A program made the translations under genes and the position numbers. Of a stretch of DNA of 55,556 nucleotides, positions 52,965-55,487 are shown one piece after another; positions within the stretch are counted from its first letter, which is position 1, and the number at the start of each line of letters is the position of its first letter. The DNA is from Paludibacteraceae bacterium (lineage in GTDB: Bacteria; Bacteroidota; Bacteroidia; Bacteroidales; Paludibacteraceae). The stretch is from NCBI GenBank assembly GCA_017525455.1, contig JAFXSS010000104.1:1-55556 (forward strand). The letters are read 5' to 3'. Below the pieces are notes generated by a model, which did no database searches, was not told where the DNA came from, and saw nothing but the letters and a program-made list of their open reading frames with translations.

Positions 52965-54146
52965 ATGGCAAAAATCCTTGTTATTGACGACGAACGTGCG
53001 ATACGAAATATTCTGAAGGAGACTCTGGAGTTCGAGGGGTACTCCGTTGATGTTGCCGAGAACGGTGCTCAAGGCGTTGAGATGGCGCAAGCTGGCAGTT
53101 ACGACCTGATCTACAGCGATGTCAAGATGCCCCAGATGGACGGAACAGAACTGCTGGCTGCACTCAAGCATCCCGATAGCAACTGTGCCGATGTGCCCGT
53201 AGTGATGATTTCCGGACACGGCAATATAGAGACCGCTGTCGATTGCATCAAGCAGGGCGCGTACGATTTTCTGGAAAAACCGCTCGACCTCAACCGTCTG
53301 CTCGTTACCACACGTCACGGCATCGATAGCAAGCAGCTGCGCCATGAGGCTACCACCTTGCGCAACGAGGCTACCGCGCTCAAGAAGAAAGTCAACAGCA
53401 AATACCAGATGATCGGCTCCAGTGCCGCCATCGGGCAAGTTCGTGATATGATTGCCAAGGTCGCACCTACCGAAGCACGCGTGCTTATCACCGGCGAGAA
53501 CGGTACGGGCAAGGAGGTTGTGGCACGTATGCTGTTCGAGCAGAGTAACCGTGCCGACATGCCGCTCGTGACATGTAACTGCGCTGCCATACCGTCCGAA
53601 CTGATAGAGAGCGAACTGTTCGGTCATACCAAAGGCTCGTTCACCGGTGCTGTCAAGGATCGTGCCGGTAAGTTCGAGCAGGCCAACGGAGGCACACTGT
53701 TCCTCGATGAGATTGGCGACATGTCGCTCGCAGCACAAACCAAGGTTCTCCGTGCACTGCAGGAGGGCGAGGTTACACGCGTTGGTAGCGACAAACCTAT
53801 TCAGGTCAACGTGCGCGTCATTGCCGCCACTAACAAAGATCTGCATCGCGAGATTGAGAAAGGCACGTTCCGCGAGGATCTGTTCCATCGGCTCAATGTC
53901 ATTCCTATCCATGTGCCCGCGCTCGACGACCGCAAGGAAGATATACCCGAACTGGTCGAGTTCTTCACCTCACAGATCTGCGAGGAGCAAGGCTGGGCGG
54001 TCAAGCATTTTACACAAGATGCTATAGCGGCGTTGCAGCAACGTCACTGGCCCGGTAACATTCGTGAATTGAGGAACGTGGTCGAACGACTGATTATCTT
54101 ATCCGGCACGGAAATCTCCGCCGCTGACATAGAACACTTTGCTTGA
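52965..54146 (+). CDS. NtrC-like response regulator lacking a C-terminal DNA-binding domain
   Basis: 393 residues. The receiver domain (1-120) has the acidic pocket DDE at 8-10, phospho-acceptor Asp52 in [11 protein letters not shown], and Lys in FLEKPLD. A linker of about 20 residues rich in Arg/Lys/Glu follows. The sigma54-type AAA domain (about 145-375) has Walker A GENGTGKE at 177-184, the sigma54-contact loop as GSFTGA at 224-229 (usually GAFTGA), Walker [13 protein letters not shown], and [11 protein letters not shown]. The frame ends at ADIEHFA, directly after the AAA lid, so the Fis-type helix-turn-helix normally present is missing. The gene overlaps the 3' end of recF by 48 bp. No histidine kinase is nearby. 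Confidence 0.9.
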
Positions 54147-55274
54147 CCCCAGAGGTTGTACTATCTCCGTCAGGTGCTGACGGTCGGTGTCGGTCAGAAA
54201 TATCTGTCCGAACTGTTCGCCGCGCAACATATCTACTATGCGCGCTACACGCGTGGCATCCAGTTTGTCGAATATATCATCCAGCAGCAATATAGGCTTA
54301 CCCAATTGTTGGGGAGAGCGGAGGCACGCGTCGCCTTTATGCCGCGTGGCATCTGATGCTACCGCGTTATCGAACGCGAGCGCCTGAGCCAGCTTCATGG
54401 CTATCAGATAGGTCTTTTGCTGTCCCTGACTGCCTACGCGCCGCAACGGATAATCGCCCAGCTGCATCTCCAGCTCATCTTTATGCACACCCTGCGATGT
54501 CCAGCCCAGTATCAGGTCGCGCTGACGCGTGCGGCGCAGCGACTCTGCCAGATCGCGGTCGAACAGTTGCGAACGGTACGTCAGCCGGGGCTGCTCCTCT
54601 ACTTCCGCTATGGTCTTGTACAGGTCGGCAAAGATCGGAACGAACGCTTCCACAAACGCCTTGCGACGTGCAAATATATACTCCGCATGCGGCACCATCT
54701 GCATCTCTATCACATCAAACAGGTCGCCGGGAACTGTTGGCTGATCGCCGTCGCCGTACTGCTTCAGCAACGCGTTACGCTGCTTGACCAATGAGTTGTA
54801 CAGGTTCAGATGCTCCAGATACGCACGGTCGGTCTGACCAATTATTATGTCCAGAAACCGGCGGCGCTCATCGCTTCCTTCGGCTATCAACTGGTTATCT
54901 TCCGGCGACACCATCACCAGCGGTATACGCCCTATGTGGTCGAGCATACGCTGATAATCCTTCTTGCCTAACTTGAATTGTTTCTTCAGTCCCCGCCGTA
55001 TCCCGCACGTCACTTGTATCGGCTCATCCGATGCGAACCCATTGCCGAACGCGTAAACTCCCTGTATCATCGCAAACTCAGCGTCATGCCGTATGTTCTG
55101 CGAGTCAACGGTGTTGAATGCTGACTTGGTGAAACTCAGGTAATATATGGCATCCAGCAGGTTGGTTTTGCCTTGCCCGTTCAGTCCCACGAAGCAGTTC
55201 AGTTTGTCCGCAAACGTCAGATCCGCCTCACGTATGTTCTTAAAGTCGATAATATGTAACTCCTGCAGTATCAT
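54099..55274 (-). CDS. recF: DNA replication and repair protein RecF with an in-frame palindromic insert
   Basis: 391 residues of the SMC-like RecF family: Walker A GLNGQGKT at 30-37, the signature motif region RRVGSQGQQKTYLIAMKLAQ, Walker B ILLLDDIFDKLD, and the D-loop His region FLTDTDRQHL. It loads RecA at gaps with RecO and RecR. Between KLAQ and the Walker B strand are about 31 residues (ALAFDNAVASDATRHKGDAC and more), about twice the usual spacing by comparison with E. coli RecF. This stretch is encoded by a palindromic repeat that occurs again upstream at 55433-55487. The 3' end overlaps the convergent NtrC-like gene. No clear promoter is visible upstream. Confidence 0.93.
   Translation of the reverse strand: MILQELHIIDFKNIREADLTFADKLNCFVGLNGQGKTNLLDAIYYLSFTKSAFNTVDSQNIRHDAEFAMIQGVYAFGNGFASDEPIQVTCGIRRGLKKQFKLGKKDYQRMLDHIGRIPLVMVSPEDNQLIAEGSDERRRFLDIIIGQTDRAYLEHLNLYNSLVKQRNALLKQYGDGDQPTVPGDLFDVIEMQMVPHAEYIFARRKAFVEAFVPIFADLYKTIAEVEEQPRLTYRSQLFDRDLAESLRRTRQRDLILGWTSQGVHKDELEMQLGDYPLRRVGSQGQQKTYLIAMKLAQALAFDNAVASDATRHKGDACLRSPQQLGKPILLLDDIFDKLDATRVARIVDMLRGEQFGQIFLTDTDRQHLTEIVQPLGSSKVFYVSGGDFRAG
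54328..54380 (-). repeat. Palindromic repeat element, copy A, inside recF
   Basis: On the minus strand it reads CTCGCGTTC, six variable bases, GCGGT, n, GCATC, n, then a hairpin ATGCC-ACGC-GGCAT, and ends AAAGGCGACGC. It is in frame and codes for recF residues of about 299-316. Confidence 0.8.
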
Positions 55275-55363
55275 TTCGCGCTAATCTATTATTGGATAAT
55301 CGTTTTCAATCCCGGGGCCCCCAAAGAAACCAGCGCAGCGTTTCGCATGGGGAGAGCATGGAG

Positions 55364-55384
55364 AAAGCAATTGACTTTTGCTTT
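55364..55384. other. Intergenic hairpin upstream of recF
   Basis: AAAGCAA and TTGCTTT form a 7-bp stem around TTGACTT. With the palindrome GGGGCCCC at 55313-55320 and copy B of the repeat, most of 55275-55488 appears to be repeat-derived sequence with no gene. Confidence 0.45.
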
Positions 55385-55432
55385 CGAACGGGAGGGACAG
55401 CGGGGAGCGTCGTCACGACCCAGATAGCAACG

Positions 55433-55487
55433 GCGTCGCCTTTATGGTGCAAGCACCATCCGATGCGACCGCCTTGCTGAACGCGAG
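55433..55487 (-). repeat. Palindromic repeat element, copy B, intergenic
   Basis: On the minus strand it has the same flanks as copy A (CTCGCGTTC ... GCGGT-n-GCATC-n, and AAAGGCGACGC) around a different hairpin, ATGGTG-CTTG-CACCAT. It begins 1 bp after the stop codon of the gene cut off at the window end. Confidence 0.8.

Follow-up and report, generated by a model that had tools for sequence, protein, structure and literature searches.

The recF gene of a Paludibacteraceae bacterium raises the question of how a palindromic repeat can lie in frame within a conserved gene and recur upstream of it. The window analysed here, the whole stretch of 55,556 nucleotides in which this gene lies, is one contig (G000:C10) of a host genome of 2.15 Mb in 165 contigs (85.6% complete). 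We propose, with a probability of about 0.85, that the repeat belongs to a family of genus-specific, non-autonomous mobile palindromic repeats whose heads abut the outer edges of functional sequence; that it is a mobile repeat which is translated in frame is very probable.

An initial annotation had noticed blocks shared by an insert in recF (copy A) and an upstream sequence (copy B), set around two hairpins of different sequence, and these blocks and hairpins are present where it placed them (Table 1). The place given for copy A, 54328..54380, also stands, and its extent is revised to about 79 bp with the leading TC counted. The in-frame position of copy A, with the RecF signature region on one side and Walker B on the other, is as had been suggested; the length it adds, put at about 17 residues, is instead 23 relative to a short relative (L020) and 14 relative to the nearest ones (L018, G001 and G007). 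The insert is absent from all the other Bacteroidales RecF proteins aligned, which came from 29 of the 57 genus genomes with a match and from 25 of 80 wider loci. The second in-frame piece of recF, a head fragment, agrees with the head consensus at 26 of 30 positions, against 21 of 30 for the next-best match in the window, and is absent from the aligned genus relatives.

Table 1. Features of the recF locus, in positions of the window.
Feature	Position	Strand	Description
recF	54099..55274	-	391 aa, with two in-frame repeat pieces; from the open reading frame list and NCBIfam TIGR00611 (E 1.2e-86), matched in two stretches
Copy A	54301..54379	-	Head, first hairpin and short third stem CCCAA/TTGGG; covariance model match at 54293-54377, E 1.5e-10
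recF head fragment	55025..55052	-	GCGTTCGGCAATGGGTTCGCATCGGATG, 28 nt, in frame in an N-proximal loop, residues AFGNGFASDE
Copy C	55312..55391	-	Variant element; weak covariance model match, E 0.013; P3 and tail like those of the host copy at C131
Copy B	55433..55486	-	Head and first hairpin, truncated after P1'; covariance model match at 55400-55484, E 7.7e-9

The region upstream of recF, which had been taken from 55313 to 55487 as a possible longer version of the element, reads as two elements in a row, the truncated copy B and the variant copy C. Copy C has a different hairpin (GAAAGCAA...TTGCTTTC) in place of the P1/P2 part, and its tail lies some 37 nt before the start codon of recF. The head of copy B lies 4 nt after the TAA that ends an open frame entering from the contig end, this frame being a predicted one only. 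The covariance model that recognizes copies A and B was built from nine other host copies, with neither of the two among them. A conserved-block pattern that allowed any hairpin found copies A and B and two further host places (a reversed-pattern control found 0), and a longer pattern found copy B only, with 0 matches expected from 100 shuffles of the window.

At E<=0.01 the 80 recF loci taken from named genomes proved free of the element under the covariance model, as did the 66 examined of the 102 recF, porQ, rlmN and gluQRS loci, bar one known host copy near gluQRS. The named relatives are largely from ruminant guts, judging by record titles, and the nearest named RecF (78% identical) is that of a Paludibacteraceae assembly from red deer. 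The recF of Red_deer_2_mag_14, also of the Paludibacteraceae (L022:5222-6118), contains a TCTCACTTCCCACAGCGCAGCGG-like repeat in frame at three places; this repeat is seemingly unrelated and occupies loops where the host recF varies too.

A search of the host genome and its relatives with the conserved flanks, which had been recommended, revealed many more copies, several of them in frame in other genes. The first relatives in the host genome came from BLAST with copy A and from two patterns, and the covariance model raised the number to 35 matches at E<=1, of which 31 lie at E<=0.01. The host copies define a family of about 105 bp with two hairpins and fixed end motifs, in which (T)C is followed in order by GCGTTCGGCAA, P1, P2, P1', GCCTCSGCT, CCCC, P3 and GGGGACCCC. 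The head is (T)C before G[CG]GTTCGGCAA or near variants; P1 is a stem with a bulge and P2 a closed hairpin, after which come P1', GCCTC[CG]GCT and CCCC, and the 3' part consists of the variable stem P3, GGGG and then ACCCC. Both ends are sharp. Among 88 heads passing a motif filter, the GCG is preceded by C in 77 and by T in 50, with no conservation further out; among 37 tails with exact GGGGACCCC, conservation drops within one base past this motif. The end logos contain no terminal inverted repeats when the head (TC before GCGTTCGGCAA) is set against the GGGGACCCC tail, the best possible terminal match being TCG/CGA in some copies only. In 26 copies from other species, TC precedes GCG in 22 and many have a different central hairpin, so that the covariance model probably undercounts them. 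Two other origins were considered and rejected: no Rfam family matched the repeat in the nine loci scanned, which speaks against a known RNA family, and a pattern from the head to GCCTCCGCT gave 0 exact matches in a viral contig collection, which speaks against a viral origin.

The initial annotation had held that the stem changes while its pairing is kept, and the wider family bears this out. Across 98 distinct aligned copies, in an alignment fitted to the model and hence favouring the structure, both sides have changed in 19 of 19 stem pairs and 89% of the cells are paired, compared with 70% in shuffles and only 31-53% when the partners are slid; the covariation score is 0.387 against 0.111 in shuffles. 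Of the cells in the short-loop hairpin P2, 98% are paired, and of those in the irregular P1, 76%. Where the host (L130) and G001 (L181) have a copy at an orthologous tRNA-Ser site, the P2 stem has changed as a block on both arms and the remainder is nearly identical, which could reflect selection on the structure or arm-to-arm copying in replication. The second of these leads to an alternative in which pairing is kept by mutation: intrastrand template switching would repair one arm from the other, and the stems would drift yet stay palindromic. The difference between P2 and P1 and the block change at the tRNA-Ser site both fit such a process, which we regard as a serious possibility somewhat short of even odds. 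It accounts for covariation and for neither the spread of the repeat nor the placement of its head described below, and would thus add to the mobile repeat reading and not replace it.

In-frame copies are present in at least six conserved genes: recF, porQ and rlmN in the host, gluQRS in G007, murB in G009 and dapB in G004. For the first four of these (recF, porQ, rlmN and gluQRS), the insert is absent from relatives at both the protein and the DNA level, and NCBIfam matches each protein in two stretches, RlmN at 289.3 against a cut-off of 290 (0.7 bits under). In murB and dapB the insert is placed by domains only: 93 profile positions of MurB_C span 155 residues, and the dapB insert lies between DapB_N and DapB_C, with an NCBIfam score of 87.4 against a cut-off of 122. 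A Nudix gene of G003, in which only the later part of the domain is matched, probably holds another in-frame copy. The copies in recF, porQ, gluQRS and dapB are in sense orientation and those in rlmN, murB and the Nudix gene in antisense orientation, and in the cases checked by eye the head adjoins a conserved protein segment. The gene search was of a kind that could show frame-keeping insertions only, frame-breaking ones being invisible to it.

The repeat itself is rich in open frames, with a mean of 2.7 of the six per element against 1.7 in shuffles (113 elements of >=90 nt). Element length is divisible by three in 56 of the 113; this was set aside as evidence, since related copies share lengths. 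Because nearly half of the six frames are stop-free, a copy that landed in a surface loop could be translated and tolerated there. Two further observations concern genes near or at such sites. On host contig C131 (L112), the end of a called gene falls about 25 nt into the element head, which would give that gene its last residues and its stop codon. Element-free genes at the recF, rlmN and gluQRS sites (L223, L283, L284, L313 and L314) often carry in-frame 7-bp tandem-like units such as GTCGAAA, CAGTCAG and TTACACC, as if these loops collected several kinds of repeat.

For the analysis of placement, a set of 122 elements was assembled from 30 of the 35 host matches, 32 rows from G001, 34 from G007 and 26 from other genomes; 102 matches were reduced to 96 by removal of two tail fragments and of four rows that duplicated one place, and 33 further matches to 26 by removal of five duplicates and two weak ones. 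The 26 represent a few loci per genome and are a sample of those genomes, not a full census. Gene edges were taken from a purpose-made, non-standard codon-usage caller and tRNA edges from tRNA calls; distances were counted from TC, and the edge had to face the head. By this measure, a stop codon or a tRNA or tmRNA end is no more than 6 nt away from 39 of the 122 heads, compared with 2 of the 122 tails (Fisher p 2.9e-11). The 39 comprise 19 at tRNA/tmRNA 5' ends, all antisense, 5 at their 3' ends, 15 at stop codons and 0 at start codons; of the two tails, one is at a stop codon and the other at a start codon. Only 2.2% of random intergenic positions in the same loci were that near an edge.

A third kind of edge is the TAnnTTTG box, which we take to be the -7 promoter element of Bacteroidetes. 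It precedes 18 of 120 uncut heads in sense and 0 of 121 uncut tails on the opposite strand, the heads of L124 and L191 and the tail of L177 being cut by contig ends; the gap from box to GCG is exactly 5 nt in 12 of the 18. The box was found at 483 of 32,996 intergenic control positions (1.5%; p 2.5e-13 for the uncut heads against these) and at 30 of 5550 random positions anywhere in the loci. Altogether 57 of the 122 heads lie at a recognisable edge and 65 elsewhere, and removal of identical upstream 25-mers (120 kept) gave the same picture. The bias is weaker among the 26 copies from other genomes, where 5 are at promoters, 2 at tRNAs, 0 at stop codons and 19 elsewhere. In addition, a called start codon follows seven of the tails at a distance of 29-31 nt. 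At element-free tRNA 5' ends of G001 (L171:1321-1389 and L188:559-577), other small palindromes adjoin the tRNA by eye, suggesting that a hairpin at this position may be usual in the genus.

These positions can be explained in several ways. Structured RNAs acting in cis as leader, attenuator, terminator or mRNA protection might be selected at transcript edges, with the in-gene copies as strays; the promoter-box heads in sense with their regular gap, the 15 heads at stop codons, the seven tails before start codons and the strong covariation, in an alignment fitted to the model, would all be expected of such RNAs. We consider this explanation unlikely, as the 19 copies at tRNA and tmRNA 5' ends are antisense, those in rlmN and murB are antisense within coding sequence so that no consistent sense orientation to the target gene exists, the nine loci match no Rfam family, and copy number varies widely within one genus. 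Selection could also have produced the bias by itself, if insertion were random and the survivors were those that left a stop codon, tRNA or promoter intact in compact intergenic DNA. Many copies do fill short spacers between such edges, and all three kinds of edge bound likely essential sequence; selection of this sort, however, predicts tails at edges about as often as heads, in conflict with the 2 and 39 observed and with the low frequency of edges at random intergenic positions, and is therefore a doubtful account. Head and tail would be told apart if targets were chosen by a rule linked to transcription or to RNA ends. The element may pick its target, inserting head first where a transcribed or translated unit begins or ends (a transcription start, a mature tRNA end or a stop codon) by a mechanism that reads RNA ends or single-stranded DNA opened by transcription; we hold this version of the mobile repeat reading as a tentative suggestion with the odds against it. 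To our knowledge, no bacterial repeat with head-first insertion at such boundaries has been known.

Genome comparison reveals sites that are filled in one genome and lacking in another. The porQ site is filled in the host and lacking in G007, where the protein reads cleanly as SVMYGYNFGE-HNYF; a tRNA-Arg site is filled in the host and G007 and lacking in G001; and the TGA/ATG gene junction beside L126 is filled in the host and lacking in G001. The porQ insertion seems to have replaced about 12-15 nt. No target-site duplication is visible at porQ, and the other sites are too diverged for one to be read, many with other short repeats (7-bp units). Since some other short repeat or a small palindrome is often present at lacking sites, these do not represent a clean ancestral state. 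Host and G007 have flanks that are 95% identical at the tmRNA 3' end but elements that are quite different, which suggests that sites are refilled or elements exchanged. The genomic data contain no transposition event as such. We envisage that the repeat spreads through the chromosome as DNA, probably with a hairpin-recognising host protein acting in trans.

All the genomes surveyed are drafts in many contigs, and the contig of the window ends 70 nt past copy B, so an assembly or binning artefact had to be considered; it is very improbable. Several separate genomes contain the element with its covarying stems, L113 and L197 from separate genomes have near-identical copies at an orthologous place, and the in-gene copies keep frame.

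The family appears restricted to one genus among the 41 genomes searched with the covariance model at E<=0.01: matches were obtained in 18 of 25 genomes of the genus, host included, and in 0 of 16 genomes of other families. Copy numbers are 31, 33 and 35 in three genomes and 0-12 in the other 22 of the genus, seven of which have no match. With stricter filters and E<=1e-4, only the host matched among 198 genomes of the order, then with 18 copies; that scan spanned two other genera of the family, and weak relatives could escape its filters.

The resemblance to Rickettsia palindromic elements (RPEs) that the initial annotation had drawn holds for behaviour. Like RPE and the Wolbachia elements (WPE), the repeat is a hairpin repeat in the range of about 100-150 bp (RPEs measure 105-146 bp, PMC2229807), found between genes and in frame within conserved genes. 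It differs in belonging to another phylum, in its two hairpins with fixed end motifs and in lacking terminal inverted repeats, which in RPEs are 12 bp long (PMC2229807); it also adjoins tRNA and tmRNA genes and is not inside them, whereas RPEs also occur within tmRNA and RNase P RNA genes (PMC2229807). The likeness, as compared by description, is one of behaviour, and any kinship would be hypothetical. Miniature inverted-repeat elements (MITEs) such as Correia/NEMIS, RUP, ERIC and YPAL are non-autonomous, structured, about 100-170 bp long and in some cases intragenic (PMC2229807), features that our repeat appears to share; it has no terminal inverted repeats and, at porQ, shows no target-site duplication, the other sites being too diverged for one to be read.

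REP elements are likewise palindromic and numerous, lie close to the 3' end of the gene upstream and are sometimes found inside genes, including DNA repair genes (PMC3733652), all of which recalls the present repeat. They are defined as palindromes of 20-40 bp with a GTAG or CGTC (TGTC, CCTC) end tag (PMC3733652); our repeat is about 105 bp and shows no GTAG or CGTC end tag by eye. The claim that no counterpart had been described in Bacteroidales holds for this element within the open-licence full-text literature searched, which yielded no description of it; CGTC-tagged REPs are described in Bacteroidetes, and in-frame REPs in other bacteria (PMC3733652). The best-known palindromic repeats that lie in frame are those of intracellular alphaproteobacteria (RPE and WPE), with some as REPs in other bacteria (PMC2229807, PMC3733652). 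A Bacteroidales family suggests that translated repeats are a more general route to protein loops, beyond genome decay. For annotators, it means that parts of RecF, RlmN, PorQ, GluQRS, MurB and DapB are repeat-derived in some species. How RPE-like elements choose their targets is, as far as we know, an open question; head-first placement is a rule open to measurement, and could reveal how they do so.

The search for a RAYT-type transposase, also recommended at the outset, succeeded in finding RAYT-like proteins in the host and its relatives and failed to link them to the repeat. The host, G001 and G007 encode seven such proteins of 332-469 aa, with HUH and Y..NP motifs recognised by eye. Their matches to the RAYT model NF047646 are weak and below cut-off, only G009 passing among 31 genomes; PF01797 matched nothing in the host or G001 and only below threshold in G007, and Pfam Y1_Tnp scored 15.3-19.8 bits against a cut-off of 23 in the four of the seven scanned, a G009 protein being above this cut-off at 33 bits. 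In having RAYT-like proteins with HUH motifs the genus resembles, by description, the Bacteroidetes TnpA-REP subclass 2.6, in which "atypical secondary structures" flank the gene and recur elsewhere in the genome (PMC6006769). In our case, unlike both REPs and subclass 2.6, no significant copy lies near any of the seven loci of these three high-copy genomes, the host gene included, within about 2 kb on each side (less at contig ends). Over all 11 loci there is one such copy (L363, genome G022), and G001 has one copy about 4.3 kb from a RAYT-like gene on the same contig. RAYT-like matches occur in 14 of the 18 genomes with the repeat and 3 of the 7 without (Fisher p 0.16; Spearman rho 0.22, p 0.28). 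An IS200/RAYT enzyme was accordingly rejected as an established mover, given the lack of linkage, and remains a candidate only; that a RAYT-like HUH transposase moves the repeat is conceivable at rather less than even odds. The RAYT-like proteins of about 330-470 aa (L353:2110-3261 in the host, L354-L360 and L362) have a long C-terminal extension, and those of L355 and L359 contain in-frame tandem repeats, for example ALTHGAPNEE and LDITDAEHRT.
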